Part shown: positions 2,174 to 33,479 of the stretch, one piece after another
Position numbering within the stretch: the first letter of the stretch is position 1
How the letters are laid out: the number at the start of each line of letters is the position of its first letter
Virus record (IMG/VR): IMGVR_UViG_3300023184_000106
Coordinates: 1 to 64,000 of that record
Reading direction: 5' to 3' (one strand)
From: a virus
Length of the DNA stretch: 64,000 bases
Position numbers and translations under genes: made by a program
Notes under the pieces: model-generated
Databases searched by the model: none
What the model was told of the DNA's origin: nothing
Seen by the model: only the letters and a program-made list of their open reading frames with translations

Positions 2174-2710
2174 TTATTTTGCTACATCAAAAAATAAAAT
2201 TATATTTGCTCGTTCTCCACTTATAACTGTATTGACTGAATGATGATGGTGTTCATCTCCTCTAAAGTGAAGTAGGGTCCCTGGATCAGGCTTATATGAT
2301 TGTGGTACATCTTCATCATAAAATAAAATTTCTCCGCCATCATAATCGTTGGTTAAATACAATAAAGCTGATTGACCAATTTCCCCATAACCTTCTACTC
2401 CGCCATATCCGTCTGCATGGTAACCTAATCCTTCTCCTTGTCTCAATACTTGATACAGCACCCTATTAATAGAAATCTTATCTTTAGGTACGTCAATTTC
2501 ATCTTTTATAGATTGGATTAGTTGATTTAAAAATGCATAAGCCGCTTTGTCAATTTCATAAATAGAATTATCAAGTTCTTTTTCCCAAGGTACGTGGAGC
2601 TGCTTGCTTAATACACCCTGCGGGTTTGCTGTCACAAGAGGTCTCAAAAAACTATTAAGGCCTTCAGCAACTTCCTTTGGAATAAAGCCGTCTACAATTA
2701 TTGGTTGCAT
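2174..2710 (-). CDS. 2-oxoglutarate/Fe(II)-dependent oxygenase (P4H-like)
   Basis: 178 residues, a single double-stranded beta-helix domain. Iron ligands are visible as HAD (His98, Asp100) and the distal His157 in an HHHHSV run; Arg167 in GERANI is the expected 2-oxoglutarate ligand. The region around DGGEILFY resembles prolyl-4-hydroxylase-type (P4Hc) enzymes. The family couples oxidative decarboxylation of 2-oxoglutarate to hydroxylation of a protein, nucleic-acid or small-molecule substrate; the substrate here is unknown. It is the first of three such enzymes between 2174 and 4780. The short downstream 32-residue gene is on the 5' side and is TAATG-coupled to it. Confidence 0.88.
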   Translation of the reverse strand: MQPIIVDGFIPKEVAEGLNSFLRPLVTANPQGVLSKQLHVPWEKELDNSIYEIDKAAYAFLNQLIQSIKDEIDVPKDKISINRVLYQVLRQGEGLGYHADGYGGVEGYGEIGQSALLYLTNDYDGGEILFYDEDVPQSYKPDPGTLLHFRGDEHHHHSVNTVISGERANIILFFDVAK

Positions 2711-2808
2711 TAGTCTTTACGGAAATGCTCGGCATTAGATTTAAGTAATGCTTTGTAAGCTTTCTTAAACTTCAAGTATTTTATAGGGTTTTTCCATATT
2801 TTAAACAT
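2710..2808 (-). CDS. 32-residue basic micro-protein
   Basis: ATG at 2808 to TAA at 2710. It is Lys/Tyr-rich, for example KNPIKYLKFKKAYKALLK, which would form an amphipathic basic helix. A TATAAT exactly 6 bases upstream predicts a leaderless mRNA and fixes the start. The stop overlaps the start of the 2OG oxygenase (TAATG), so it may act as a leader cistron or as a small membrane-binding peptide. Confidence 0.55.
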   Translation of the reverse strand: MFKIWKNPIKYLKFKKAYKALLKSNAEHFRKD

Positions 2809-2814
2809 ATATTA

Positions 2815-2820
2815 ATTATA
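2815..2820 (-). promoter_or_regulatory. -10 element, leaderless
   Basis: TATAAT lies on the minus strand 6 bases before the ATG at 2808, inside the 3' end of the upstream 91-residue gene. There is no convincing -35. It probably drives the 32-residue gene and the 2OG oxygenase at 2174. Confidence 0.55.
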
Positions 2821-3091
2821 CCTCACTTTTATCTGTTTCATGAAGCCATTGCTCTTCCCATAAGCCCATGAGGGATATGTTTCCAATGTCGTCAAAGTAA
2901 TAACGCTTGGCGTTACTATTGTACGTCCAGCCATACCATGTATCGCCTTCAGACCATGTAAGATTAGTTGGCTCTTCATCTTTGTACTTTTCGATCCGCT
3001 TAGCTATCCCATCATACATATGAACTTCATCAAATACCGCCTTGCGAAGTGGATCCCATCTAAACATTCTATTGACCAACCAGTCAATCAT
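2816..3091 (-). CDS. Hypothetical protein
   Basis: 91 residues, acidic overall, with a Trp/Tyr-rich segment (about 46-67, including WYGWTYNSN) that could form a small beta sheet. There are no catalytic motifs, signal peptide or membrane segments. It is sandwiched between two 2OG oxygenases and probably belongs to the same transcription unit. The family is not recognised. Confidence 0.6.
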   Translation of the reverse strand: MIDWLVNRMFRWDPLRKAVFDEVHMYDGIAKRIEKYKDEEPTNLTWSEGDTWYGWTYNSNAKRYYFDDIGNISLMGLWEEQWLHETDKSEV

Positions 3092-3096
3092 TTTAC

Positions 3097-3714
3097 TTAT
3101 TTCAATTCTTTATGGCGAATATGTAAAACAAAGCAAGCTCTTTCTCCAGAAAGAACATTTTCAACTGAATGTGATGTATATCCATCAAAAAGTATTAAAG
3201 ACCCAGTTTTTGGACTGTATGATATTGGATTATCTAACTTTTGATTTTCATAAAAAGTTACAGCCCCACCCTCATATTGATCGTTTAAATACAAAACTGC
3301 TGTGTATATTTTTCCACCCTCACCCCAGTGGTCGCAATGTGCATCTTGCCCGTTTTCACCAATTTTATCAGAACCAAAACCAGTGCCAATTTTTTCTACC
3401 CCAAAGCATTTATAATGTGAAGTTTCATATATTATTTCTGAATTGCTAAAACCAAACACGCTGCACATATTTTTACCAATTAAATTAAATAGATCATATA
3501 TCAAAGAATTTTGCATACCTTTACTACCAAGGGAATTCAATAGGGAAAAAATTTCTGGGGTCCATCCCATACAAACAGCATTTGAACCGCTATCTTCATT
3601 TACATAAATTATACATCTTCCGCCTGAATCTAGTAAGCTAGACTCTTTCATATACAAATTTATATATTCACAGGTCTCTTTACCAATAAAATTTTCAATT
3701 ACTTGTGGTTTCAT
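3097..3714 (-). CDS. 2-oxoglutarate/Fe(II)-dependent oxygenase
   Basis: 205 residues. Metal ligands are His126 and Asp128 in HCDHW, and His182 in SHSVENV; Arg192 in GERACF should bind 2-oxoglutarate. The EGGAVTFY strand matches the equivalent strand of the 2174 enzyme. Overall it is diverged from that neighbour, so these look like separately acquired or long-diverged members and not a recent duplication. A strong Shine-Dalgarno sequence (AAAGGAG) precedes the ATG. The substrate is unknown. Confidence 0.85.
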   Translation of the reverse strand: MKPQVIENFIGKETCEYINLYMKESSLLDSGGRCIIYVNEDSGSNAVCMGWTPEIFSLLNSLGSKGMQNSLIYDLFNLIGKNMCSVFGFSNSEIIYETSHYKCFGVEKIGTGFGSDKIGENGQDAHCDHWGEGGKIYTAVLYLNDQYEGGAVTFYENQKLDNPISYSPKTGSLILFDGYTSHSVENVLSGERACFVLHIRHKELK

Positions 3715-3916
3715 TTATATCTCCTTTTACATCCCAATACGGTACGCCATCTTCATTATAATCTGATCCAAGTCGGGCTAGCATCTCTTGGACCTCTGGA
3801 TCTACATGCCAACCATCAACTATAGAATTAATACTCTTTAGCTGAAGATATTTTCTGTGAATGGCAATACCGCTTATTATATAAGCAATAACTGCAACAA
3901 CAATAATAGTTACCAT
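3695..3916 (-). CDS. Small membrane-anchored protein
   Basis: 73 residues: an N-terminal transmembrane helix (about 2-18), a basic loop RKYLQLK, then an acidic soluble tail. A near-perfect promoter (TTGACA, 17 bases, TATAAT) ends 6 bases before the ATG, making this a well-supported leaderless start. It overlaps the following 2OG oxygenase by 20 bases. The function is unknown. Confidence 0.65.
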   Translation of the reverse strand: MVTIIVVAVIAYIISGIAIHRKYLQLKSINSIVDGWHVDPEVQEMLARLGSDYNEDGVPYWDVKGDINETTSN

Positions 3917-3922
3917 ATAGTA

Positions 3923-3951
3923 ATTATAGTAAATAAATGCAGTTTTGTCAA
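3923..3951 (-). promoter_or_regulatory. Consensus promoter, leaderless
   Basis: Minus strand: TTGACA (3946-3951), 17-base spacer, TATAAT (3923-3928), 6 bases, then the ATG at 3916. Both hexamers match the sigma-70/HrdB-type consensus perfectly. The transcript should begin at the start codon. Confidence 0.9.
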
Positions 3952-3955
3952 TAGG

Positions 3956-4780
3956 CTAGTGGTATCTAACACCACTTATGCCGTTCTCTTTTTCTTTAGT
4001 AACCTCTTCTGGCTCTTCCCATTTAAATCCATTGATTGGGGTAAGCCATTTATGCAGGTTATTAGTTTTTTTGGCCTCTATAATTTGTTCATTATACTCA
4101 TCTGATTTATATGAATAAAAGGTTCCTGGGTTTGCCGTAGTAGGCAAAACAAAATTAGAGAATGCAAATCTTGTACCGCTTAAAACTGGATTCACACCGT
4201 GAGCGTAATCATCATGAGATCCATGAATTACAAGATCTCCACGACCTGGCTTGATTCTAAGCTCGTTACCCTCATTCATTGGAATATCTCCTCCGACCCA
4301 GGTTCCATCATTTTTTACATGTGGATAAAATATTTCTCCACCTTCAAATTCACCAAAATAAATTATTAATCCATAATGCAATCGGCAGCAAGTGTTCCAT
4401 CTATCTTCTGCAATTAATCTAGATGATGCTATATCACAAACACCACAGATTGGCCCACAATTATCATGAGGCTCTCCAGGGGCATCTGAGTGTATAAACA
4501 TACCCTCATCTCCCACTCTTCCAACTAAGAAAAATGCTTGAGGGTGCATCACTAATTCTGGATATATTAAATCACTAGCCATTTCCCAAACTTCTAATAG
4601 CTCATGCATAACCTTAGTACTTCTATTGTTATACCAGTCGACGTTGTGATCTATGGTATCTGGAGTTTTATAGTCAGCACATAAGGTTTCTATTTTTTCT
4701 AATAAATTGCCATTAATAAAGTTTCTGTAAACCCAAACTTTAGGGGCAAGTTGTTCTATATTGGGATTGTCTGTAAACAT
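3956..4780 (-). CDS. 2-oxoglutarate/Fe(II)-dependent oxygenase
   Basis: 274 residues. HSD (His97, Asp99), His194 in YAHGV and Arg204 in SGTRF form the iron and 2-oxoglutarate site, and FEGGEIFYP is the conserved core strand. A cysteine-rich insert at about 108-132 (CGPICGVC, later CC) lies next to the active site and is unusual; it may bind a second metal. TATAAT lies 6 bases upstream of the ATG, giving a predicted leaderless mRNA. It is expressed just downstream of the P450 gene, consistent with shared oxidative chemistry. Confidence 0.86.
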   Translation of the reverse strand: MFTDNPNIEQLAPKVWVYRNFINGNLLEKIETLCADYKTPDTIDHNVDWYNNRSTKVMHELLEVWEMASDLIYPELVMHPQAFFLVGRVGDEGMFIHSDAPGEPHDNCGPICGVCDIASSRLIAEDRWNTCCRLHYGLIIYFGEFEGGEIFYPHVKNDGTWVGGDIPMNEGNELRIKPGRGDLVIHGSHDDYAHGVNPVLSGTRFAFSNFVLPTTANPGTFYSYKSDEYNEQIIEAKKTNNLHKWLTPINGFKWEEPEEVTKEKENGISGVRYH

Positions 4781-4786
4781 ATTTAT

Positions 4787-4792
4787 ATTATA
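4787..4792 (-). promoter_or_regulatory. Extended -10 (TGG-TATAAT), leaderless
   Basis: The minus-strand TATAAT is preceded by TGG and followed by 6 bases and the ATG at 4780. No good -35 is seen, so it is likely an extended -10 promoter. Confidence 0.6.
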
Positions 4793-4806
4793 CCATTTCT
4801 ATTATT

Positions 4807-6093
4807 TTACTGTAAGTCTCTTTTTTTTATTTTTATCATTACTTTGCCCTCTGGTCTATATGTAGCGATTGGTAATCCTTTTGGGAAATCCCCCACTAAT
4901 TCTATTTTCATTTTACTTGCCATCTCAATTAGAGTCATTTGAGATTGAGCCATAGCAAATTGGTACCCTATACATTTTCTTGGACCTAAATGGAATGGGA
5001 AATATGCGCCTTCTGGCAAGGATTCTTCTAGGCCTCCAGCCCAGCGCATAGGGTTAAATGTATTTGGATTATTAAAATACTTATCGCTTCTATGTGTTAC
5101 AAAAGAACTTAATATTACATTAGTACCAGATTTTATTAATGTGTCGCCAACCTGGGTGTCTACAATTGCCATTCTTGGACTGAACCAGACTGGCGGGTAT
5201 AGTCTCAGAGCTTCGTTAATTGCAAATTTAGATATATTCCAATCTCTAATGCTATGAACTATGCTATCACTGCCAACATTAACTTTCTTAGACTCTTCCA
5301 TTAAGAGTTCCCAGTAGTCTTCATACTGAGTCATATGAGCTATACACCAAGATAGTGTGTTAGCAGTTGTCTCGTGACCTGCCAAGAGCATCGTGATAAC
5401 CTCATCGCTTATGTCTTGAAGAGATATGCTATCGTCATCTATCGATGCCATTATTAGTAGATCAATAAAATCCTTTTCTTCTCTTTCATTCTCAATTCTA
5501 TTTTTAATAACCTTTAACATTAATGAATTAAGCTTTTCTGATATCTCTTGGAAGGTACCTGGGCTTGAGTGTTCACCGTGACTAGTTTTTGCTAAAATTT
5601 GAAAAAATATTGTCTTGAGATCATTTGATTCCTCAAGAATATCATCATTAAATATTGTATTTGTTAATACTTTATATGATAAGGAAAACATCTCTTCGCC
5701 AATATCTATAAGTTCTTTATCTAGCCATTTATCTGTTTCTTCTTTTATGATCAATAAAGATTTTTCTAAATAATAATTAATTTTATTTATATGAAATGCA
5801 GGATTTAAAATCCTTCTATGGTGCAGGTGAATTGGCTCTTCGCTAGTAAGTAAACCTTCTCCTAAAGCTTTTTTAATTATATGCCACCCTCCAGACTTTA
5901 TAAAGTTTTTATATTTTTTAATATAAATCTCTTCAACAAGCTCTGGTGTAAAGGCAAATAGATATTGTTTTGGTAAGATTGATCCAGACGACGGGGTGGC
6001 TACATTTAAAAAGAATTTATCTCCACGTTCTTTTTGTAATTGAAGCAGATACTCTGGTCCCCTAATCTTTAATTCATTTTTAATATCATTCAT
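4807..6093 (-). CDS. Cytochrome P450
   Basis: 428 residues, full length for a soluble bacterial P450. Diagnostic motifs are all present in order: C-helix HHRRILNPAFH (about 91-101), I-helix AGHETT (238-243) for oxygen activation, ExxR (Glu294-Arg297), a PERF-like FNPMRW (346-351), and the heme-thiolate loop FHLGPRKCIG with Cys374. The C-helix and I-helix wording resembles the fatty-acid-hydroxylase-like clans (CYP4, CYP102 heme domain, CYP110) more than class I camphor-type enzymes. There is no reductase fusion and no ferredoxin nearby, so host redox partners would be needed. A strong SD (AAGGAGG) precedes the ATG, which overlaps the upstream gene by 8 bases. Confidence 0.96.
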   Translation of the reverse strand: MNDIKNELKIRGPEYLLQLQKERGDKFFLNVATPSSGSILPKQYLFAFTPELVEEIYIKKYKNFIKSGGWHIIKKALGEGLLTSEEPIHLHHRRILNPAFHINKINYYLEKSLLIIKEETDKWLDKELIDIGEEMFSLSYKVLTNTIFNDDILEESNDLKTIFFQILAKTSHGEHSSPGTFQEISEKLNSLMLKVIKNRIENEREEKDFIDLLIMASIDDDSISLQDISDEVITMLLAGHETTANTLSWCIAHMTQYEDYWELLMEESKKVNVGSDSIVHSIRDWNISKFAINEALRLYPPVWFSPRMAIVDTQVGDTLIKSGTNVILSSFVTHRSDKYFNNPNTFNPMRWAGGLEESLPEGAYFPFHLGPRKCIGYQFAMAQSQMTLIEMASKMKIELVGDFPKGLPIATYRPEGKVMIKIKKRDLQ

Positions 6094-6328
6094 AATTAAT
6101 GCCCTCCTTAAATTTAATTTTTATCCACGACCCTATCTTACCAGAAACAACTTTATTTCTTAATATAGATGAATATTTTTGGTGTCCTAGTGAAGTACCT
6201 AGGTACTCTTCTCCTGTTTCCATGTCTATTATTTTCCATTTGGATGGAGCCTTGGTGTGTATTATAAGATCAACTGGGTAATCTAGCGATTCAACATTTG
6301 ACCCATCTTGCAATAGCCTAGTGTTCAT
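6086..6328 (-). CDS. Hypothetical actinophage protein
   Basis: 80 residues from the ATG at 6328 (MNTRLLQDG). A longer frame to 6361 would overlap the SDR further and is less likely. The core has alternating Lys/Trp beta-strand character (APSKWKIIDMETGEEYLG, SWIKIKF), a pattern familiar from conserved actinophage proteins of unknown function. It lies between an SDR and the P450 with overlaps on both sides, so it is translationally coupled to them. Confidence 0.65.
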   Translation of the reverse strand: MNTRLLQDGSNVESLDYPVDLIIHTKAPSKWKIIDMETGEEYLGTSLGHQKYSSILRNKVVSGKIGSWIKIKFKEGINYE

Positions 6329-7022
6329 ATACACCATTATCAACAAATATAGATTGCCCATTAACTGCTTTTGAATTTTTAATTAAATAACAAATTAAAT
6401 CAGAAACTTCTTCAGGACCACCTATGTATGCCTTTGTAATATCATTGGCAAAAATAATCTTTATAACTTCACTCTTAATATATTCTTCTGTCATGCCAGT
6501 TTTTGTTAGAGATGGATGTATTACATTTATTCTTGCGTTTAAATTAGATTTAATAAATTTTCTCGCCCAGTGATTAAGGGCTAATTTACAAGATGCGTAT
6601 ACTTCAGTATCAGTAAGATGATTATCCTTTGAATATAAAATAGCTTCTTCTTCTTTATCATCAAGTAACAATGATATAAGTTTTGGGTTTACCTTAGTAT
6701 GAGAAAAAATAATAGATCCTATTAAAATTGCATTAACATTGTCATACTGCTTATATATACTTTCTATAAGTCTAACTGAGCCAAAATAATTAAGTGGTAT
6801 CACACTGCTTCCGCCTATCACGCCAGCACAGGTGACCACTCCATCTATAGACTGATTCATGGATGCTATTTTAGAGACTAAATCTTCTATATTACTTTTA
6901 ATAGATAAATCGCAAACCATATCAGACTCTAATATATCTATACCCGTTACTAAATCAGTCTGTTTTAGTGAGCTATAGGTAGATTTACCTATGCCAGAAG
7001 CTGATCCAGTTACTAGATACAT
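6318..7022 (-). CDS. Short-chain dehydrogenase/reductase
   Basis: 234 residues, classical SDR length. The cofactor motif TGSASGIG (5-12) opens the Rossmann fold, CAG (about 65-67) follows, and catalytic Ser103, Tyr142 and Lys146 (YASCK) are in place. It would oxidise or reduce an alcohol or carbonyl with NAD(P)H; the substrate is unknown. It is translationally linked through a small gene to the P450, a combination typical of tailoring pathways where a hydroxylated product is oxidised further. An AGGA Shine-Dalgarno sequence precedes the ATG. Confidence 0.92.
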   Translation of the reverse strand: MYLVTGSASGIGKSTYSSLKQTDLVTGIDILESDMVCDLSIKSNIEDLVSKIASMNQSIDGVVTCAGVIGGSSVIPLNYFGSVRLIESIYKQYDNVNAILIGSIIFSHTKVNPKLISLLLDDKEEEAILYSKDNHLTDTEVYASCKLALNHWARKFIKSNLNARINVIHPSLTKTGMTEEYIKSEVIKIIFANDITKAYIGGPEEVSDLICYLIKNSKAVNGQSIFVDNGVYEH

Positions 7023-7051
7023 TTTGTATTCCTAATCTTTAGTTAAATTAA

Positions 7052-7147
7052 TTAAAAGATAGAAGCTTCTGCAACATCAACGCTATCATCAATTGTTCTA
7101 GACATATCAATAACTAAATCACTTGAGCTTGTTCTAATCTGACACAT
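7052..7147 (-). CDS. 31-residue micro-protein
   Basis: ATG at 7147 to TAA at 7052. It is Ser/Asp-rich, begins MCQIRTSSSD and has no structural motif. It is supported mainly by position, filling the gap between two genes of the micro-gene array. It could be a short regulatory peptide or non-functional. Confidence 0.4.
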   Translation of the reverse strand: MCQIRTSSSDLVIDMSRTIDDSVDVAEASIF

Positions 7148-7156
7148 TGTAAATAC

Positions 7157-7393
7157 TTAAACTTTTTTTCTTCCAGTTTTTTTAGGTTGCTGGGGAGTTA
7201 TTTCTCTTCTTATCCCGTGCTTATTTATATCTACTTTAACTGGAGGTCTTTTTGTTTGCACACCAGATTTAAATTTACCCTGATATGGCTTTTTTGCTGT
7301 AGCCTCTGCAGATGTTACAGCGCCAGCAGATGCACCAGCGTTAGCTGGTGGCACCGTGCTAGTACCGTTTTCTTTTTGAAAACTATTAGTCAT
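7157..7393 (-). CDS. Low-complexity basic protein
   Basis: 78 residues. An Ala/Thr/Ser-rich first half (about 10-35) leads to a Lys/Arg/Pro-rich second half ending KKTGRKKV. It is probably disordered; the basic tail could bind nucleic acid or the virion. It overlaps the upstream Cys-rich gene by 8 bases. The family is not recognised. Confidence 0.55.
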   Translation of the reverse strand: MTNSFQKENGTSTVPPANAGASAGAVTSAEATAKKPYQGKFKSGVQTKRPPVKVDINKHGIRREITPQQPKKTGRKKV

Positions 7394-7571
7394 TATCGTT
7401 TATGACCGCTCCTGTAGATGTTGATGTACTCATTGAATCAGAGTCATCAAGACCACTTTCATCCATGCTATCAATATCTCCACCAAAGATGTTAGTGATG
7501 ACCATCATAGGGGTGTCTGGAGATGTAATATCTCCATTCCCAGCCTTACCGCAACCACACATAATACACAT
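7386..7571 (-). CDS. Small protein with Cys-rich N-terminus
   Basis: 61 residues starting MCIMCGCGKAG: three cysteines within seven residues, then an acidic Ser/Thr/Asp-rich, likely disordered tail. The N-terminal Cys cluster could bind metal or be lipidated or palmitoylated, but there is no lipobox. TAATG coupling to the upstream 48-residue gene supports the start. Confidence 0.5.
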   Translation of the reverse strand: MCIMCGCGKAGNGDITSPDTPMMVITNIFGGDIDSMDESGLDDSDSMSTSTSTGAVINDND

Positions 7572-7717
7572 TAGTTGCAGTTCTCACAATTCTTAACTGA
7601 ACAAGGGGCTTCGCCTCTTGTGTCTCTTGTGCAATCTGTACTAGATGTAGTTGGAGCTACTGCTCTTACTGGAGCTGTAGCAGCCTCTACTACTGGCTCT
7701 TGATCCAATATAGACAT
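7571..7717 (-). CDS. 48-residue protein with C-terminal Cys motif
   Basis: ATG at 7717 to TAA at 7571. An Ala/Val/Pro-rich first half precedes cysteines at about 30, 38, 43 and 46 near the C-terminus (ending KNCENCN), a potential zinc or disulfide cluster. It is coupled to the next gene by TAATG. The function is unknown. Confidence 0.5.
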   Translation of the reverse strand: MSILDQEPVVEAATAPVRAVAPTTSSTDCTRDTRGEAPCSVKNCENCN

Positions 7718-7719
7718 TA

Positions 7720-7875
7720 TTACTTACCGCTTGTTCCGACGCCTGAGCTATCTTGTGTTGACTTATCTGTTGAAGGGAAAGCTGATCCTGTGTTATCTGA
7801 ATAGTGACCATTTATATCGTTAGTTGCTGATGGCTTTACTGTTGCAAAACCGTCTAAATTTAATCCGTCTGACAT
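7720..7875 (-). CDS. 51-residue low-complexity protein
   Basis: ATG at 7875 to TAA at 7720, preceded by a strong Shine-Dalgarno sequence (TAGGAG, 8 bases upstream). It is Ser/Thr/Gly/Asp-rich and probably disordered. Unlike its leaderless neighbours it has a real 5' leader of about 50 bases from the promoter at 7933, containing a 6-bp hairpin, so it may be highly expressed. The function is unknown. Confidence 0.55.
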   Translation of the reverse strand: MSDGLNLDGFATVKPSATNDINGHYSDNTGSAFPSTDKSTQDSSGVGTSGK

Positions 7876-7932
7876 TTTATTACTCCTATAGGTTATTTAT
7901 TTAAGCGGGACTAGTATTCCGCTTATGACTCT

Positions 7933-7941
7933 ATTATAGCA
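7933..7941 (-). promoter_or_regulatory. Extended -10 promoter (TGC-TATAAT) with structured leader
   Basis: TATAAT (7933-7938) is preceded by TGC. The next ATG is near 7875, so the transcript has a leader. The leader holds a 6-bp inverted repeat (AAGCGG / CCGCTT, around 7901-7923) upstream of the SD. The core ATGCTATAAT recurs at 1231 and 46386. Confidence 0.6.
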
Positions 7942-7950
7942 TTTAGTTGA

Positions 7951-8073
7951 TTAGGACTTGTATTGCTTATGCCAGCAATCATCACAGATGTCTATTATTG
8001 GTCCGCCTAGCTTTCCAGAGAGCCTTGTTGACTTATTTTTACAGTCCTTTATTTCGCAAAAACCACTAAACAC
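7951..8073 (-). CDS. 40-residue zinc-ribbon micro-protein, GTG start
   Basis: GTG at 8073 to TAA at 7951. Cysteines at 6 and 11 and a CDDCWH knuckle near residue 30 make a compact zinc-ribbon. The start overlaps the stop of the upstream basic gene (TAGTG). Spacing of the Cys pairs resembles other phage zinc ribbons in this window (860, 13325). Confidence 0.55.
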   Translation of the reverse strand: MFSGFCEIKDCKNKSTRLSGKLGGPIIDICDDCWHKQYKS

Positions 8074-8213
8074 TATTTAGGGCCTCTGGCCTTTTGACCC
8101 CTGTACCCAGTCTTTTTAATATTCATTGAACCTGGCTTTTTTTCCCCAGGGGCGTAGGTTGCGGCCTGTCTTTGAGCTAATGCCCTTTTCATTTTATCTA
8201 GATGTTTACCCAT
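8073..8213 (-). CDS. 46-residue highly basic protein
   Basis: ATG at 8213 to TAG at 8073. It is rich in Lys/Arg/Gln with Gly-Pro turns (APGEKKPGS, GYRGQKARGPK) and is likely to bind nucleic acid or be virion-associated. It overlaps the luciferase-like monooxygenase by 8 bases and the next GTG start by one base, so it belongs to that transcript. Confidence 0.5.
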   Translation of the reverse strand: MGKHLDKMKRALAQRQAATYAPGEKKPGSMNIKKTGYRGQKARGPK

Positions 8214-9000
8214 TAATTGATTTCCTTATCTCTTTTATTATATTGTGTATTTCTGAGCTTTGCCCTCGAACGGGAAGCTGATGTACTAGTATATCTGTAA
8301 CTCCTTTTAACTTTAAGTTCAGAATCTCTTTATGTATGTGATCCTTATCACCATAGATGGTTGTCTTACCGTGGGTTCCAATAATTTTATTTAAATATTT
8401 ATTGCTTTCATCAAGCGTGTCTTTATTTAATATCGCAACAGATACAATCTGCTTGTCATTTTTTAATAATGTTTTATCGTGTTGATATAAAAAATCATCT
8501 AGCTTGATTATATTGGTAATTCCATACTGTATGCAAGCTTTTTGAAAATCTATAGTATCACCAGATAGCATAAGTGGGGGTAGGTTTTTAATTATTGATA
8601 GCCTATTATATTTTTTAAGCCATTCTAATGTATAAAGATCTCTTTGTTCTTGTGTTTTAATTTGATCTTCAATTAAAACAACATCCCTTAAACTTGTTTC
8701 TTGAAATTTAATATTTCCTGGAATTATATTAAAAGTGACACGTCCTGGCGCAATTCTTTCAAATGTTTCATACATTCCCGCCAAATATTCTGGAGATACA
8801 GAATATGTTCTTACCGCAATTATATATTTAAAAGTATGATCTTTATTTATTGTATTTGATACAGTAATAACAGCATTATCTAAAAATGAATCATATACTA
8901 TAAGTAATGATTCATATCCCACCTCATGTACGGCGTTGGCTATACTTATTAATGCATCTTTAGAGTTATCTTCAAATAAAGACATATAGTGAAATTTCAT
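8206..9000 (-). CDS. Luciferase-like (LLM) flavin monooxygenase
   Basis: 264 residues. A TIM-barrel flavin-dependent monooxygenase pattern of the SsuD/alkanal-monooxygenase superfamily is visible: GYESLLIVYDS (about 28-38), IIAVRTYSVSPEYLA (60-74) and ERIAPGRVTFNIIPG (81-95), which correspond to the strand and helix segments around the flavin site. It is shorter than typical SsuD (about 380), so some insertion and C-terminal regions are missing. The enzyme would use reduced FMN and oxygen on an unknown substrate. TATTAT 6 bases before the ATG predicts a leaderless mRNA. No flavin reductase is visible. Confidence 0.78.
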   Translation of the reverse strand: MKFHYMSLFEDNSKDALISIANAVHEVGYESLLIVYDSFLDNAVITVSNTINKDHTFKYIIAVRTYSVSPEYLAGMYETFERIAPGRVTFNIIPGNIKFQETSLRDVVLIEDQIKTQEQRDLYTLEWLKKYNRLSIIKNLPPLMLSGDTIDFQKACIQYGITNIIKLDDFLYQHDKTLLKNDKQIVSVAILNKDTLDESNKYLNKIIGTHGKTTIYGDKDHIHKEILNLKLKGVTDILVHQLPVRGQSSEIHNIIKEIRKSING

Positions 9001-9012: not shown

Positions 9013-9025
9013 CCATTTAAATAAT

Positions 9026-9055
9026 AAAGGGGCAAGGCCTAGGCCTTGCCCCTTT
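9026..9055 (-). terminator. Rho-independent terminator (30-nt perfect palindrome)
   Basis: A 30-base perfect palindrome, arms AAAGGGGCAAGGCCT and its complement, begins 13 bases after the stop of the secreted-protein gene. It is followed on the minus strand by TTTATTATTT. The stem is the most GC-rich hairpin in the non-coding parts of the window. Confidence 0.88.
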
Positions 9056-9067
9056 GCTTTAATATAC

Positions 9068-10240
9068 TTACTTCTTTAGTGAAACTTTGGACTTTGGATT
9101 AGCCTTGTTCCATTTAGCAGCCAGTTTATTATAATCAGCTTTTAGTTTTGCTTCTGTTGCATCTGAAAGAGTCTTAGCAGTTAGTGCTGCAGAAGACGCA
9201 TTAGCCTTATCAAGTGCAGCATCTGCTGCAAACTTTGAATGTGATGCAATGGCATCTGAAAGAGCCTTATCTCCACTAGCCTTAGCATCTGCTAAAGTTT
9301 TTTCTGCTACTGCTTTAGCTGCATCTGATGCAACCTTGGCATCTGCTAAAGCTTTTGCATTTGCTAACTTGTTTGCTTCATTTGAAGCTTTTTCAGTGGC
9401 AAGCGCTGCTTGTGATGCCGCAAGGTCTGACTTTAGTCCTGCAATAATTCCCGTAAGATCAGAAACTGTAAACTTGGCAATGACAGACTTTACTGGTGCA
9501 GCAAGGCCAGTTACGGCTGTTACTGTTGAAAGACCTGTAGCAACTACAGTAACTTCTCCAGCAACTGATGTTGCTAGGGCTGATGTTACAGTTCCAAGAA
9601 CTGCTCCAGTCGAAGTGTTTGTTGCTGTTGCTGTAGTTAGTGACTTTGTAACAGAACCATCAGCAAATGTTGAGCCGATCAATGTTACTGTTGCTGTATC
9701 TGAAACTGAGTTTCCGAATACATCTGTTGTTGTTAGAGCAATTGTAGGAACTGTGCCCACTGCTGTTGCAGATGGAACTGTTAGTCCTAGGTTGTATGCT
9801 GCTCCAGCAGTACCAGAGATGTAAACAATTGTTGAGTACGAGCCATTAGTAATGGTTACTGTACCGACTGCTGTTGTAGTTGTATAAGCATAAACTGTTG
9901 CTGCTGATCCAGCAGAAGTAACTGTAAGTGTTGAAACACCTGATGCGACTGACTTTGGTGCATCTGTTGTGTTAAGTGCTGTTACCAACTTTACAGTTGA
10001 TGAAGCAGTAAAAGTAACGCTTGTGCCTGTATCTGCTGTTGCTGCCAAGGCAATAGTGTTTCCAGAAGTAATGACATTACTTGATGGAACTGCTACTGTT
10101 GCTGGTGCTGTCGTAGTTGTTGCGTTATTTACTGTTGCAACCGTAACGGCAAGCGGTGCTGCCGAAGAAGGTGCTACAGAAAATCCAACGATTGCTAAAG
10201 CTGCAGCAGTAGCAATTGATATTTTTTTGAACGATTTCAT
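9068..10240 (-). CDS. Secreted Ala/Thr-rich surface protein with coiled-coil C-terminus
   Basis: 390 residues from the ATG at 10240, chosen because AAAGGAG precedes it and because it starts a clean signal peptide (KSFKK, hydrophobic core, SSA-AP cleavage near residue 28). Residues about 30-270 are Thr/Val/Ala beta-rich and resemble bacterial Ig-like or invasin-type repeats. From about 275 to 370 an Ala/Lys/Asp helix with heptads forms a coiled coil, ending in a basic tail. Base composition is visibly richer in G+C than most neighbours, suggesting capture from the host. It is flanked by a strong terminator. It may coat the infected cell or alter phage receptor exposure; this is inference. Confidence 0.8.
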   Translation of the reverse strand: MKSFKKISIATAAALAIVGFSVAPSSAAPLAVTVATVNNATTTTAPATVAVPSSNVITSGNTIALAATADTGTSVTFTASSTVKLVTALNTTDAPKSVASGVSTLTVTSAGSAATVYAYTTTTAVGTVTITNGSYSTIVYISGTAGAAYNLGLTVPSATAVGTVPTIALTTTDVFGNSVSDTATVTLIGSTFADGSVTKSLTTATATNTSTGAVLGTVTSALATSVAGEVTVVATGLSTVTAVTGLAAPVKSVIAKFTVSDLTGIIAGLKSDLAASQAALATEKASNEANKLANAKALADAKVASDAAKAVAEKTLADAKASGDKALSDAIASHSKFAADAALDKANASSAALTAKTLSDATEAKLKADYNKLAAKWNKANPKSKVSLKK

Positions 10241-10335
10241 TCTATTTATTTCTCCTTTTATTATCTGTCTCTTCACGAGCCAGAAATTTGTGACATGTTC
10301 ACACTATGTAAGACGTTTTTAGACCTCAAATGTCG

Positions 10336-10830: not shown

Positions 10831-11040
10831 CTACTCTCCTTTTAATTCGTCCGCAGCGCTATTAAACTTCTCCATGAATGTTTGAATAACCCACATTGCC
10901 GTCTCGCCAGCATTTGTAGAAAGTGCTTTTGATGCGGCCTCATTTCTATCTTCAAGAGCAATTGAGTTGTACCATTTCTGGTACAACTCCTCGCCAATCT
11001 CTTTTATAATTTCTTCTAATACAGTTAGCTTATTATCCAT
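10831..11040 (-). CDS. Small helical hypothetical protein
   Basis: 69 residues predicted to be mostly helical and acidic, with no motifs. It overlaps the end of the subtilase gene by 8 bases and runs to one base before the thioredoxin start, so the three are one operon. The family is not recognised. Confidence 0.6.
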   Translation of the reverse strand: MDNKLTVLEEIIKEIGEELYQKWYNSIALEDRNEAASKALSTNAGETAMWVIQTFMEKFNSAADELKGE

Positions 11041-11971
11041 TTATTGCGCCCTGTTCACTCATTACGATTCCTATTTGATTTAAAGAATTTGTGATTGGCT
11101 TAGCAGTTCTTTTAATTAGATCAAGCATTTGTGACATTGTGAGTGTTGGTTTTGATGACGACACACTTAGCCATTTTGCTGCTGCAATTTGTACTGAAAC
11201 AGATGTTCCAAATGCGTTACCCTCTGCACCTCCAGGGAATAGCACTCTGGCTGATATTGGTGCCCAAAAATCTGTCAATACGGGATCGTAATTACTAGTA
11301 ATAGATGTTGCATAAGTTTCATCAAAATCTTCTGCCCCGCCTATTGCAATGGATGATGGAATACATGCTGGCCAGTCAATTCTTGCTTTGTCACGACCAT
11401 TACCTGTGGGAAAAAATACTGGAATGTTAGACTTTGAAAACCAATCCACCCAATAATCTGTATTTGTAACTGGGCAGTAGTTTGTTTTAGCCAGTAGGTT
11501 GTGGTGGCCTTGCGACATGCTTACTGCTTTAATATTATATTTATCCTTGTTTTCATACAGCCATTTCAAAGCATTTGGAACAGTGTTAATTCCTGTAGTT
11601 TGTCTCATTCCATTTGCAGTGTTCCCAATAATGCGGACAAACAGAATATTCATATTTGGGTTATTTGCAATTGCAATAGATGTCATCTGAGTTCCGTGGT
11701 TTAAGTCTCTACTAACCATTAGATTAAGTGGGATGACTGCCGCCCCTGGACCTTCCATAAACTTTTGGCCATTGGCGCATGTTGCCCAATCTAAAATACA
11801 AACCTCACCAATTAATCTTGATTTAATTGAGGGGATTGAAGTGTCTAGAGCTGTGTCTAGAATTGCCAATGTCGGCACATTTACTGTTGTATTTTTTAAT
11901 ACAGCAGCATTAGCTGTTGGTATTAAGCATAGAGCTATTGAGGCTACTAGAGCCGTGATTATTTTTTTCAT
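11033..11971 (-). CDS. Secreted subtilisin-like serine protease (S8)
   Basis: 312 residues. A Sec signal peptide (KK, hydrophobic core, AN-A cleavage near residue 22) precedes a subtilase domain with Asp39 (AILDTALD), His92 (NHGTQM), an Asn191 oxyanion candidate (PTGNG) and Ser257 (FGTSVS). There is no long prodomain, which is unusual for S8 enzymes and may mean autonomous folding. It would act outside the cytoplasmic membrane on host surface or extracellular proteins. It has its own near-consensus promoter and a predicted leaderless mRNA. Possible roles are receptor removal, envelope weakening or nutrient release. Confidence 0.92.
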   Translation of the reverse strand: MKKIITALVASIALCLIPTANAAVLKNTTVNVPTLAILDTALDTSIPSIKSRLIGEVCILDWATCANGQKFMEGPGAAVIPLNLMVSRDLNHGTQMTSIAIANNPNMNILFVRIIGNTANGMRQTTGINTVPNALKWLYENKDKYNIKAVSMSQGHHNLLAKTNYCPVTNTDYWVDWFSKSNIPVFFPTGNGRDKARIDWPACIPSSIAIGGAEDFDETYATSITSNYDPVLTDFWAPISARVLFPGGAEGNAFGTSVSVQIAAAKWLSVSSSKPTLTMSQMLDLIKRTAKPITNSLNQIGIVMSEQGAING

Positions 11972-12408: not shown

Positions 12409-12966
12409 CTAAACTTGAATGTATGTATAGGGGGCCGTTACGCTCATATTGAATTCAGTTGCAGCCTCTAGTGCTGCTTTTAATCGCAAACGTGGATTCT
12501 TTTGGTTCTTAGTAGCATACAATGCTCCAAGTGCTACCATTCCACCGCTACCTTCTGCCATGTAGTTAACAATGTTTTCTCCAACATGAAAATCTTCATC
12601 TATAGTAAAAAGTCTTCCGCATACTCCAACAATAAAAATTCCACCCGTATCTTCCTCTGACGGTGATCCTATACTTCCATAGCCATGATCTTTAAATACA
12701 GACTTAACAGAATCAATAAATTTAGTTCTCATAAACTTATCTAAACCAGAGTTTGTTTTAGTTGGTGTATATTTTGGAGGGGTCCACATATATTGAAGGA
12801 TTTGTCCCATACGAAATGAATCTGTAAATGCAATTCCATACTGACCATTTTTAAAACATTTTGGTTCTTTTCTTGCCAAAATCCATCCAGTTTTATCATC
12901 TGATGCGGCATGGTCGGAGCCCATATACACAACACCACCTTGAGCAATAGCAACGATACAAGTCAT
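12409..12966 (-). CDS. Proteasome-beta-like Ntn hydrolase
   Basis: 185 residues. The N-terminus MTCIVAIAQGGVVYMGSDHAA fits the beta-subunit/HslV/Anbu superfamily: Thr2 would become the N-terminal nucleophile after Met removal, Asp18 follows in GSD, and a Lys lies near 33-36 (RKEPKCF). Later strands end in a glycine-rich GSGG near 138, as in the fold's second layer. No alpha subunit, ATPase or Pup-like gene is visible in the window. Phage members of this superfamily are known but uncharacterised. It could self-assemble as a small protease or act as an amidase. Confidence 0.8.
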   Translation of the reverse strand: MTCIVAIAQGGVVYMGSDHAASDDKTGWILARKEPKCFKNGQYGIAFTDSFRMGQILQYMWTPPKYTPTKTNSGLDKFMRTKFIDSVKSVFKDHGYGSIGSPSEEDTGGIFIVGVCGRLFTIDEDFHVGENIVNYMAEGSGGMVALGALYATKNQKNPRLRLKAALEAATEFNMSVTAPYTYIQV

Positions 12967-14543: not shown

Positions 14544-14573
14544 ATTATACCAAGCGTTTAGTGGGTGTGTCAA
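14544..14573 (-). promoter_or_regulatory. Consensus promoter upstream of the whiB unit
   Basis: TTGACA (14568-14573) overlaps the stop codon of the SDR gene; the spacer is 18 bases and the -10 is TATAAT (14544-14549) preceded by TGG. It would drive the 77-residue gene and whiB. Confidence 0.8.
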
Positions 14574-15244
14574 GAGCAAAATGGTATTTCCTTTACATGG
14601 CCGATAGATATACTGTTTATATCAACGTGTTTTTTTGTATTACATATATAAGATACAATATCAGCAATATCTGAAGGATCAAGGCATTTATCTGACATGC
14701 TTGGGTTATTGTGACTATTTACGGATGATGGGATAATTTCAGAAACCCTAACACCAGACTTAGCTAGGTCACGTCTTAATATATTAGTAAGAACTGATTG
14801 AGCATGTTTTGCTATTGTGTAAGATGGGGTGGCGTTAAGTATCTCATGCCCAGCTATTGATGTTATATTTATAATTATTGGGTTATCAGATATATTCATT
14901 TTAGGAACAACCGACTTGATTAAATTAAATGTAGATGAGGTATTTAACATAAAGTCACTGCTTATATCTTCTGCATTTTGATTTAAAATATTATCCTTAA
15001 ACTCCGAAGTACCGCCACCAGCACAATTTACAAGAATAGAAATAGATTTATCTGATATATACTTAGATAGTCCAGATATTGAATCATTGTCGGTTATGTC
15101 TAATTTAAATGGTATTATATTCCTAGACTCTTCAATTAGATTAATTCTTCTTCCACAGGCTATAACTGTGTATTGATCCGATAACCTATTGGCTATTGAT
15201 TTTCCAATGCCAAAAGTAGCCCCAGTAACAATAGCATACTGCAT
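14570..15244 (-). CDS. Short-chain dehydrogenase/reductase
   Basis: 224 residues. Cofactor motif TGATFGIG (7-14), Arg32-Arg33 after strand 2 (suggesting NADPH), NCAG (73-76), catalytic Ser129, Tyr142 and Lys146 (YTIAK). All classical SDR positions are intact. It is clearly different from the SDR at 6318, so the phage carries two independent members. It is located between the endolysin and whiB units. The substrate is unknown. Confidence 0.93.
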   Translation of the reverse strand: MQYAIVTGATFGIGKSIANRLSDQYTVIACGRRINLIEESRNIIPFKLDITDNDSISGLSKYISDKSISILVNCAGGGTSEFKDNILNQNAEDISSDFMLNTSSTFNLIKSVVPKMNISDNPIIINITSIAGHEILNATPSYTIAKHAQSVLTNILRRDLAKSGVRVSEIIPSSVNSHNNPSMSDKCLDPSDIADIVSYICNTKKHVDINSISIGHVKEIPFCS

Positions 15245-21192: not shown

Positions 21193-22155
21193 TCATAATA
21201 CACTTGATCTTTCATCTAAAATTTTGTAAAATTTTGTAAAATCTATTTCACAAGCTGCCTCAAATTCTTTTAATTTTTCAATTGATGGGGCACCCCAATA
21301 CCCTATATAGTCACCCAACAGAATTTCTCGCATAATCCTTTTACCCTCATTGTACCTTTTCATATAAAACGGGAAAAGCCTTGAGTCATTATTTGCCAAG
21401 CTTCTCCAATCATCTTTGTTGTCTTTCCCATGGGCACCTTTAGTTGTTTTTTTATTATAGTGAAAACATATGTTTGGTTTAATAGAAAACATCTGGTATC
21501 CTCTGCACCACGCACGCAAAGAATATATTGGCTCATCTCCACCCCAAACAATCCTGGGATCATGCAAAATTTCAGAATATAAGTCTGGCCTGCTAAAAGT
21601 AAATTGAGCAGATATTAAATTGTGTTCTATATAATCACCGTTTTCAAAACCAACACCTTCTATTGTTGGGTATCCGTCTTGAAATGCAGAAACCTCTGAG
21701 TCTTTAAATATTAATTTTTGAGGACTATTTGATACTTCGGCATATAAAATACTGCCCGACTCATCATAAGTCCATGCTGGCGCTCTTGAGCTGATGATTG
21801 GTTTTTTTGCTATCTTTTCAAGTTTATTAAAGCATTCCACTATTGTGGTGTCCCAATGTTTAACAAATATCATATGTGAGTCTAGCTGCAAAACGTAGTT
21901 GGTGTCTGGCATAATAATAGATGAAGCAATTAGTCTAGCCAGGCCGACACCTTGTGTCCCACTAAATTCCATATTCATATAAAAAACATTTTTAATATCT
22001 GTAAAATCAGTTTTTGTAAAGCCGTTCAGGCATGAATCAAATATGACAAATGATAGATTGTCTGGGTTATCTGCATTATCTATAGCGCTTAAAACAGTTT
22101 GTTTTAAATCCTTCTCATTAGCGCTAATAATTGCTACCAAAATTTTACTGCTCAT
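21193..22155 (-). CDS. GlcNAc-type glycosyltransferase (GT-A fold, GT60-like)
   Basis: 320 residues. The segment GVGLARLIASS...YVLQLDSHMIFVKHWD (about 71-104) matches the Skp1-type GlcNAc-transferase family (PF11397-like), with DSH as the metal-binding DxD-like site. Later GGDEP (about 204-208) would be the catalytic region. There are no transmembrane helices. Family members add GlcNAc to hydroxyproline on protein in eukaryotes; bacterial and viral ones are mostly uncharacterised. The phage also carries prolyl-hydroxylase-like enzymes, a suggestive pairing. TATACT lies 6 bases upstream of the ATG. Confidence 0.8.
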   Translation of the reverse strand: MSSKILVAIISANEKDLKQTVLSAIDNADNPDNLSFVIFDSCLNGFTKTDFTDIKNVFYMNMEFSGTQGVGLARLIASSIIMPDTNYVLQLDSHMIFVKHWDTTIVECFNKLEKIAKKPIISSRAPAWTYDESGSILYAEVSNSPQKLIFKDSEVSAFQDGYPTIEGVGFENGDYIEHNLISAQFTFSRPDLYSEILHDPRIVWGGDEPIYSLRAWCRGYQMFSIKPNICFHYNKKTTKGAHGKDNKDDWRSLANNDSRLFPFYMKRYNEGKRIMREILLGDYIGYWGAPSIEKLKEFEAACEIDFTKFYKILDERSSVL

Positions 22156-22161
22156 ATTATA

Positions 22162-22167
22162 AGTATA
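22162..22167 (-). promoter_or_regulatory. -10 element (TATACT), leaderless
   Basis: TATACT is exactly 6 bases before the ATG at 22155; a second hexamer TATAAT directly abuts the ATG but is too close to serve. The -35 region would fall inside the tRNA-Arg gene and is not recognisable. Confidence 0.5.
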
Positions 22168-22185
22168 CCTTTCTTTTTGCTAGGG

Positions 22186-22257
22186 CACCCCTGGCTGGAA
22201 TCGAACCAGCGACAAACAGATTAGAAGTCTGTTGCTCTTCCGCTGAGCTACAAAGGT
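22186..22257 (-). tRNA. tRNA-Arg (anticodon UCU)
   Basis: 72 bases folding into a cloverleaf: acceptor ACCTTTG/CAGGGGT with two G-U pairs, D-arm GCTC/GAGC, anticodon stem ACAGA/TCTGT around CTTCTAA (anticodon TCT), and T-arm GCTGG-TTCGATT-CCAGC. The discriminator is G and no CCA is encoded. It reads AGA, a codon favoured in this AT-rich genome and rarer in the likely host. The 5' end lies one base after the carbamoyltransferase stop codon, so it must be processed from that mRNA or a longer one. Confidence 0.93.
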
Positions 22258-23679
22258 TTATGTTAATATATTATACCCGTAATATTGTTGCCAGTCAATA
22301 GTGTCTTGAATATCATTTAATAGAGGTTGGCCCTTTATGTTTAAACTAGTATTTAATAACATTGGAACTCCAGTTTGTAAATAAAATTTATTTAAAACTC
22401 TGTGTAATCCTGGATGCTGATCCCTTGTTACTGTTTGTACTCTAGATGTTCCATCAAAATGAACAACAGAAGGAACCCTTGATGGCTGCAAGCATTTAAC
22501 TGTATACTGCATATATGGACTTTCAAAATCCATATCGAACCATTTAGATGCATGATCCGCCATAACAACTGGAGCAAAGGGTCTAAACAGCTCTCTTTGT
22601 TTAATTAAATTTACTTTATTTTTTATATTAGGATCTCTAGGATCCGCAAGTATACTTCTATTACCAAGTGCCCTTGGTCCGTATTCTGCTCTTCCTGATG
22701 CAACTGCAACAACACCATCTTTTAATATGCCATCAATAATTTTTTGAACTGGGTACTCTCCACCTAAATCATGGCCTAAATATGGAGACTTCCATTCCAA
22801 ATGTTTACCGTACAATGCTGCAGCGGCACCCAAAGAACTTCCAGCATCTCCAGGGTTTGGCATTATCCATATCATGTCAAATATATTCCACAACAAAGTA
22901 TTTGCTGAAGAGTTAAGAGCACACCCACCCATAAATACTAAATTGTTTTTACCAGTAAGAGACTTTGCCATACGCATAAATTGATTTAGTCTTTGCTCAT
23001 AAACTACTTGTACTGCTGCAGCAATATCAAATTTATCTTGTTCTGAAATCCAGCCCCAGTCGGTGATTCCCTTATGAAAATTATATTTTTGCTTATCATA
23101 ACTTGGAAAATAATCATCTACTTCCTTATAATACTTTTTCCAGTCTCCGTGTGCTGCCATACCCATCATTATATATTCTTCTTGATTTGGCATAAGTCCG
23201 ATTAGCTGAGTAAAAGCTGAGTAGAATAATCCAAAACTAACTGGATAGTTTTGTTTATATTTCAACTTAATTTTTTCACCTTCTCCAACCCATATTGTTG
23301 ATGTATTGTATTCTCCAATAGCATCTAGTACCACTATTGCGGCGTCATTAAATTTACTTGTATAGTATCCTGCTGCTGCATGAGAGTAATGGTGGCTAAA
23401 AGATTTTTTAGGTATACCTGAAATATTGAATCTTGGCTTCCATTCCCCAGAACCGCCCCTTAGAAGCAGTCTGGAGGCTTTTAGAAGAGGTTTTTCGTAG
23501 TAGGCGATAGCATCAGGTGCGCCATAAGATAAGGCATCCTCAATCAAGCCGTCAGCAATATACCAGTCATTCTTTTTCTTGCTATATCTTTCAGAATGTC
23601 CTGCAAATAATATCTCACCATCTTTAATTAAAGATAGTGATGCGTCATGAGATGTTTCATTAACCCCTAATATTATCAT
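22258..23679 (-). CDS. Carbamoyltransferase (NodU/CmcH/TobZ family)
   Basis: 473 residues. The N-terminal Kae1/ASKHA-like domain begins MIILGVNETSHDASLSL and contains the metal-binding HHYSHAAAG (about 111-119), plus GGCALN and GDAGSSLGAA phosphate-binding loops. The C-terminal half has GRAEYGPRALGNRSILADPR and RPFAPVV, family hallmarks. The enzyme transfers a carbamoyl group from carbamoyl phosphate, via carbamoyl-adenylate, to a hydroxyl on a sugar or polyketide. It is somewhat shorter than TobZ (about 570). Viral homologues are known in marine phages. Its gene runs into the tRNA-Arg. Confidence 0.93.
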   Translation of the reverse strand: MIILGVNETSHDASLSLIKDGEILFAGHSERYSKKKNDWYIADGLIEDALSYGAPDAIAYYEKPLLKASRLLLRGGSGEWKPRFNISGIPKKSFSHHYSHAAAGYYTSKFNDAAIVVLDAIGEYNTSTIWVGEGEKIKLKYKQNYPVSFGLFYSAFTQLIGLMPNQEEYIMMGMAAHGDWKKYYKEVDDYFPSYDKQKYNFHKGITDWGWISEQDKFDIAAAVQVVYEQRLNQFMRMAKSLTGKNNLVFMGGCALNSSANTLLWNIFDMIWIMPNPGDAGSSLGAAAALYGKHLEWKSPYLGHDLGGEYPVQKIIDGILKDGVVAVASGRAEYGPRALGNRSILADPRDPNIKNKVNLIKQRELFRPFAPVVMADHASKWFDMDFESPYMQYTVKCLQPSRVPSVVHFDGTSRVQTVTRDQHPGLHRVLNKFYLQTGVPMLLNTSLNIKGQPLLNDIQDTIDWQQYYGYNILT

Positions 23680-23739: not shown

Positions 23740-24567
23740 TTAATTATTTTTATAATTTATAAACTCCTCATAAAACTTTTCTGCCCATACTTTATGAAAC
23801 CCTTTGCCAAAATGAAAGCCGTCCCTTGCGACTAAATCCTCTATCTTAATGCCCCAATGATCTTTCCCTGACGGTGCAGTTAAAACATAATCCGAAGAAT
23901 CATACTCTGTAAATATTCCAATAGGGTAACTATCTGGGTGCCAAGTGGACCAATAAAGTTTTACAGAATTTATTTTGCAAAATTGAATTAATGTTCTTAA
24001 AATAAAATTACTAAAAAATATATTTATATTAAGCTCAGGAATTTCGCCACCTTTAGTAAAAAAATCTAAAAATTTAGAATCTAATTTTGTTAGCTCTTTT
24101 TTATTTTTATATACTGGATGAATTAATTTTTCTTCTGACCAGGAAAGGTACCTGCTGTGATCTGGAAGTTGTAGAAATATGTAATCTGGAATTCCATAAT
24201 CACTAATATACTGAAAAATATTTAATATAATTAATGGGGTCGTCAAGCCAGTTTTACCAACATTATAGTAGCCAGACGCATTGATGTCGTTTTTAATTTT
24301 ATTATATAAAACATGTGACCATGTGTCCTCTAGTAAATTAGACGCCCCCTCTGTTTCGGAACATCCTCCAAACAATACGTGCGTCCCGACATGCTCTTTT
24401 ATAAAATTATCACACCTAAACCCAATATTGTTATATTGATAAATTATACTTAGATCAACCTCCAAACCTAATTCTTTTTCGTATCTTAAACTAAATTCTT
24501 CAGTATTTGGAGACAACTCTCCAAAATATCCTAGAGAAAAAAAGTTATCTCTTTGATTAGATATCAT
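23740..24567 (-). CDS. SGNH-hydrolase-like protein
   Basis: 275 residues. FGGCSETEG (about 67-75) carries the nucleophile-type G-x-S block and DGFHFGKGFH (about 253-262) the Asp-x-x-His block of SGNH/GDSL esterases. The middle is aromatic-rich and diverged, so the Gly and Asn oxyanion blocks are not clear. It could be an O-acetyl esterase or acetyltransferase acting on glycan. It is flanked by carbamoyltransferase and an oxidoreductase. Confidence 0.68.
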   Translation of the reverse strand: MISNQRDNFFSLGYFGELSPNTEEFSLRYEKELGLEVDLSIIYQYNNIGFRCDNFIKEHVGTHVLFGGCSETEGASNLLEDTWSHVLYNKIKNDINASGYYNVGKTGLTTPLIILNIFQYISDYGIPDYIFLQLPDHSRYLSWSEEKLIHPVYKNKKELTKLDSKFLDFFTKGGEIPELNINIFFSNFILRTLIQFCKINSVKLYWSTWHPDSYPIGIFTEYDSSDYVLTAPSGKDHWGIKIEDLVARDGFHFGKGFHKVWAEKFYEEFINYKNN

Positions 24568-33321: not shown

Positions 33322-33479
33322 GACATAAACCTCTGAACAATCCCATACCCCATCCATAAACCAAAGATTCCCATAAGCCCCGCAAAAACTGGTGGGGCAG
33401 GAACTGGTAGCTTAAAGATGCTAAATACTGCCCCAACTCCCATACCAGTAAGTGTTGTTAAAAATACTTCTTTAATCAT
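33318..33479 (-). CDS. XapX-domain membrane protein
   Basis: 53 residues, ATG 33479 to TGA 33318. Two short helices surround FKLPVPAPPVFAGLMGIFG, the hallmark of the XapX (DUF1427) family found with xanthosine transport genes and in phages. It is coupled to the 2OG oxygenase by ATGA. The function is unknown. Confidence 0.78.
   Translation of the reverse strand: MIKEVFLTTLTGMGVGAVFSIFKLPVPAPPVFAGLMGIFGLWMGYGIVQRFMS

Follow-up and report, generated by a model that had tools for sequence, protein, structure and literature searches.

A short-chain dehydrogenase and cytochrome P450 gene pair conserved in the cargo site of a large actinophage

Do oxidative genes that lie side by side in a phage genome form a pathway, or are they unrelated cargo? 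The question is raised by a stretch of 64,000 nucleotides (positions 1 to 64,000 of the IMG/VR virus record IMGVR_UViG_3300023184_000106; hereafter the window), in which open reading frames and Pfam matches place six oxidative genes on the minus strand between 2174 and 9000, just where the first-pass annotation, made from the letters alone, had put them: a luciferase-like monooxygenase (LLM, 8206-9000), a short-chain dehydrogenase/reductase (SDR, 6318-7022), a cytochrome P450 (4807-6093) and three 2-oxoglutarate (2OG)-Fe(II) oxygenases (3956-4780, 3097-3714 and 2174-2710). That annotation took the six for a tailoring pathway. Comparative sequence analysis supports a smaller unit, SDR-P450, usually accompanied by the prolyl-4-hydroxylase-like 2OG oxygenase at 3956-4780: this much of the proposal survives as a conserved phage module, and the six-enzyme pathway does not.

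In two viral contigs (L321 and L322) the arrangement seen in the window recurs one gene after another, in an unchanged backbone position, with identities of 62-73% for the LLM, 74% for the SDR, 72-73% for a small gene between the SDR and the P450, 60% for the P450 and 72-73% for 2OG 3956-4780. A third (L323, a 109 kb record) holds the SDR (71%), the small gene (63%) and the P450 (46%) at the same genomic site, and there the LLM gene overlaps that of the P450 by 4 nucleotides (nt). The order SDR, small gene, P450 is kept in all four close carriers, with 2OG 3956-4780 next in line in three of them. Scanning 2.9 million viral contigs with the four SDRs returned exactly three contigs, L321, L322 and L323, and this SDR type was seen only in P450-carrying contigs (all scans were pattern-based, their counts are minimum values and absences from them are not proof). 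A private insertion of SDR and P450 into the window contig was rejected, as L321-L323 carry both. Ratios of nonsynonymous to synonymous substitution (dN/dS, NG86) indicate purifying selection on all four enzymes (0.14-0.21 for the SDR, 0.15-0.26 for the P450 and 0.05-0.14 for 2OG 3956-4780), these values being approximate because synonymous sites are near saturation. The co-conservation expected for the whole gene set was thus borne out for the SDR-P450 pair (4/4 carriers) and 2OG 3956-4780 (3/4), and failed for the other genes: the LLM is loosely associated, adjoining the P450 in L323 and occurring in P450-less relatives too, and 2OGs 2174-2710 and 3097-3714 are not conserved at the cassette site in L321-L323.

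The viral record behind the 64-kb window is 67.7 kb long and is a fragment of a larger phage genome (relatives are about 109-120 kb). Its DnaE-type polymerase and its terminase are at most 58% and 65% identical, respectively, to those of Streptomyces phages, and it encodes WhiB, a marker of actinophages in published work (PMC6802176, PMC10202952). From these three genes the sequence is that of an actinophage, and its host, judged by kind, is likely a freshwater actinobacterium. That the contig might be a chimera or contamination was considered and rejected on two grounds: the cassette sits between backbone genes whose order is shared by four contigs, and actinophage matches are found for the tail genes as well as for terminase and DnaE.

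Gene spacing agrees with the translational coupling claimed for the SDR, the small gene and the P450. The SDR and the small gene (6086-6328, minus strand) overlap by 11 nt (ATGAACACTAG), and the small gene and the P450 by 8 nt (ATGAATGA), behind AAGGAGGG, the P450 start having a strong ribosome-binding site. The small gene, whose open reading frame is listed from 6361, most likely starts at 6328, a choice favoured by the overlap and by the relatives. 2OG 3956-4780 begins 26 nt after the P450, and just past its stop lies a perfect sigma70-like promoter on the minus strand (TTGACA-17-TATAAT, 3951-3923), which likely marks the end of the SDR-P450-2OG unit; since it lies upstream of 2OGs 3097-3714 and 2174-2710, these probably belong to the next transcription unit. 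A hairpin of 13-14 bp stands ahead of the LLM (9025-9056). Promoter and hairpin are consensus matches, not proof of function.

The cassette occupies a cargo slot, which is a hypervariable redox/modification island. Among P450-less relatives (G003, G005, G034, G038 and G048) the slot holds or adjoins an aspartyl/asparaginyl hydroxylase with a 2OG domain, glutathione peroxidase, a pyridoxal-phosphate enzyme, peroxiredoxin and an SDR; in G039 it holds a catalase (PF00199, E=1e-91) and an S-adenosylmethionine (AdoMet) decarboxylase (L164: 14571-15842 and 16284-16661). Such a slot could simply have picked up redox and modification enzymes with no relation to each other, one at a time, SDR and P450 having become neighbours through one ancestral insertion, an explanation that we regard as possible though rather unlikely. 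It would account for the other enzymes filling the slot in P450-less phages (the catalase and AdoMet decarboxylase of G039 included), for the small number of carriers and for the gene between SDR and P450, which is a phage backbone gene also present in relatives lacking both and therefore not specific to the cassette. It accounts less well for the purifying selection on both SDR and P450, and for their joint occurrence in 4/4 carriers of this branch, spread over three backbone positions, with neither of them alone in any searched record.

The P450 carriers lie dispersed over a tree built from six core backbone proteins, which requires at least four changes of P450 presence (G016 and G017 were dropped as negative controls, the locus being missing from both). 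G102 and G008 have terminases 95% identical and differ in P450 presence, G008 being without SDR, P450, LLM and the medium-chain dehydrogenase/reductase (MDR) described below. Of four independent contrasts, three have the SDR going with the P450, and the remaining one is the sister branch of phage P450s. Conflict between trees is not taken here as a sign that the cassette has moved between lineages, because the concatenated tree hides mosaicism: the G101 terminase is 94% identical to that of G102, yet G101 groups with the window overall.

The P450 (428 aa; PF00067, E=1e-55) has the features that define the superfamily, with intact ExxR, AGxET (consensus AGx[DE]T) and haem-Cys motifs and no recognised membrane anchor; these motifs do not vary among 29/29 phage P450s, and virtually all of 84 cellular P450s share them, the cellular sample having been chosen by pattern, mostly from among the genome-scan matches listed. 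The 29 phage sequences form a single clade (SH-aLRT 99) apart from the sampled cellular P450s, to which their best identity is about 33%, and on the sequences sampled the window P450 belongs to this phage-only clade. It has two branches, the SDR branch (4 sequences) and a sister branch at another genomic site (25 sequences), with shared marker residues (W70, P87, Y412 and others) rare in cellular P450s. A broad P450 alignment including cellular sequences recovered 39 contigs from the viral scan; the window P450 alone as query found no match there, because patterns drawn from a single sequence are too specific, and phage P450s alone found none in the genome contigs. The gene is rare among relatives (1/100 records chosen by terminase or polymerase similarity). 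A P450-like stretch with 41% query coverage was also seen in Pseudomonas phage Y1 (OQ572403.1, 46583-47110), an unannotated record flagged UNVERIFIED.

Among curated families and solved structures the phage P450 comes closest to the CYP170A1 albaflavenone synthase family (NF051859; PDB 3dbg), and with a score of 165 bits, where the cut-off is 700, it lies outside that family. A phage P450 already noted in the literature, that of Mycobacterium phage Adler (PMC9405906), is likewise an actinobacteriophage gene; it is 25% identical to the window P450, falls on a long branch outside the phage clade and, unlike the window cassette, has neither SDR nor sulfotransferase annotated beside it. Viral P450s are thought to use host redox partners (PMC9405906), and in the passages of PMC9405906 and PMC11814380 concerned this extends to giant viruses, which have eukaryotic hosts, whose P450s were not recovered here as close relatives and for which those passages report no coupled SDR. 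No open-access literature on a phage P450 beside an SDR or sulfotransferase was found.

In the sister branch the P450 has another recurrent neighbour. A sulfotransferase-like gene lies directly upstream in 22 of 35 loci (L221-L234, L324-L328, L335, L342 and L343), with a 7-nt overlap in 15 (Pfam support). An acyl-ACP-desaturase-type gene (FA_desaturase_2) lies near the P450 in L222 and L329, with homologues in several siblings, and some loci also hold methyltransferase and 2OG genes. Neither Fer4_15 (PF13459) nor Fer2 (PF00111) ferredoxins, the partner families searched, were found in nine P450-phage records, several of them fragmentary.

The SDR (234 aa; adh_short_C2, 2e-14) has the classical signatures (TGxxxGxG and Ser-Tyr-Lys), its TGxxxGIG, Ser and YxxxK being invariant in four homologues; together with the invariant P450 motifs and the HxD...H...R of the 2OG oxygenases, this confirms that the catalytic residues are intact. 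Its best match over the whole length, with the same motif order, is 3-alpha-hydroxysteroid dehydrogenase/carbonyl reductase (PDB 1fjh, 2dkn; PRK12428), 1fjh being the best PDB match (E=3e-14) and PRK12428 scoring 63.5 bits, below its cut-off of 242. The second strand ends in Asp (GIDIL), which marks the enzyme as NAD-type; Asp at this position favours NAD(H) and therefore the direction of alcohol oxidation.

As a rule, P450s of this type act on small hydrophobic molecules and hydroxylate them. Our preferred reading, held tentatively and at slightly less than an even chance, is that the SDR-P450 pair is the core of an auxiliary metabolic module, in the cargo site of a large actinophage, that remodels a lipophilic host metabolite. 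The P450, drawing on a ferredoxin system of the host for electrons, would hydroxylate an acyl lipid or isoprenoid type of compound, the NAD-dependent SDR would oxidise the new secondary alcohol to a ketone, and in the infected cell the resulting compound would alter metabolism or the chemistry of membrane or surface. The lipid or isoprenoid type of substrate is suggested by family resemblance and by the desaturase neighbours of the sister branch, in which the coupled sulfotransferase would cap (sulfate) the hydroxyl in place of oxidation by the SDR.

A candidate remote partner is a zinc-independent MDR (quinone oxidoreductase/enoyl-reductase-like; 24557-25495, minus strand), which possibly acts after the SDR. 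In an unbiased profile of the window genes it ranks next after the P450 itself in tracking P450 carriers, being present in 6/9 P450 phages, in 0/14 non-carriers and in 0/41 of a wider non-carrier set. We treat this association as a lead.

The three 2OG oxygenases, all with the features of their class, have different standings. 2OG 3956-4780 matches PF13640 at 2e-4, below the Pfam cut-off, and has a prolyl-4-hydroxylase-like model; its H97, D99, H194 and R204 are invariant in 11 homologues. The iron-site and 2OG-binding Arg motifs of 3097-3714 (PF13640, 2e-11) and 2174-2710 (5e-9) were read directly. PHROG 61, 2OG oxygenases common in phages, is matched well by two of the three and only weakly by 3956-4780, the one kept beside the P450. 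A fourth (33476-34429, minus strand) lies outside the cassette and is a good PHROG 61 match. The clustering of three such genes was rejected as a pathway signal, contrary to the first-pass annotation: nine of 12 relatives of 107-120 kb carry 8-12 PF13640 matches, often clustered (the other three have 0, 3 and 4), so that three in one place is ordinary.

This abundance, together with two 2OGs followed by an SDR beside structural genes in G039 (55628-57523), bears on another explanation, in which what the oxygenases hydroxylate is not a lipid but a small peptide or a protein of the virion, tail or host. The predicted prolyl-4-hydroxylase-like structure of 2OG 3956-4780 is in its favour, as is the presence of ApyO, a P450 of ribosomally synthesised and post-translationally modified peptides, among the sub-threshold family matches of the window P450. 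Next to the cassette, however, no gene for a precursor peptide was recognised, and the SDR is nearest to a steroid/carbonyl reductase family, not a protein-modifying one; we consider protein tailoring improbable.

The LLM (264 aa) just exceeds the Bac_luciferase threshold (PF00296, 6e-7; 29.5 bits against 27.9) and is shorter than usual (about 320-350 aa). Its model (mean pLDDT 83) is an SsuD-like barrel and agrees with the family assignment: Foldseek relates it to alkanesulfonate monooxygenase SsuD with probability 1.00 (TM-score 0.75 by query length), SsuD being longer (about 330-380 aa) and matching in sequence only over the N-terminal half. The LLM and 2OGs 2174-2710 and 3097-3714 look like general cargo of these phages, and its occurrence in relatives without P450 removes the LLM from the co-conserved set. 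Small molecules active against phages are made by actinobacteria, and inactivating compounds of this kind is a common role of P450s and SDRs; on this background P450, SDR and LLM might inactivate an anti-phage or antimicrobial molecule from the host or its neighbours. Neither such a compound nor a matching host pathway is in evidence here, and we hold detoxification to be very improbable.

Several observations count against a lipid-remodelling SDR-P450 module. Only four phages carry the pair, and in L323 the genes for SDR, small protein and P450 stand apart with gaps between them, the homologue of the 2OG being at a different location. The peptidyl-prolyl-hydroxylase-like model of 2OG 3956-4780 fits a protein substrate equally well; 13 of the 35 sister-branch loci are without a coupled sulfotransferase; and the association of the MDR comes from four independent contrasts, none opposite, with a sign-test p of 0.125, so few contrasts being unable to reach significance.

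Other genes of the window (all minus strand) lie outside the cassette. A glycosyltransferase and a Nol-like carbamoyltransferase (21193-23679) suggest glycan, surface or DNA modification. An Ala/Thr/Val-rich protein with a signal-peptide-like start (9068-10276) has no family match and is variable among relatives; a subtilase with a signal-like start (11033-11971) and an HslV-like peptidase (12409-12966) are kept in most of them. A second, FabG-like SDR is encoded at 14570-15244.

Hardly any P450s have been reported from phages, the open-access literature yielding a single mycobacteriophage gene, and a P450 clade confined to phages, with two coupled partners that recur, is a defined, clonable target. 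It is conceivable, though we would not expect it, that a large actinophage lineage has long kept its own P450 family with interchangeable finishing enzymes (an NAD-type SDR or a sulfotransferase) for modular small-molecule tailoring of a host lipid or isoprenoid. The substrate of the P450 and SDR would show what a phage of environmental actinobacteria needs to alter in the chemistry of its host.

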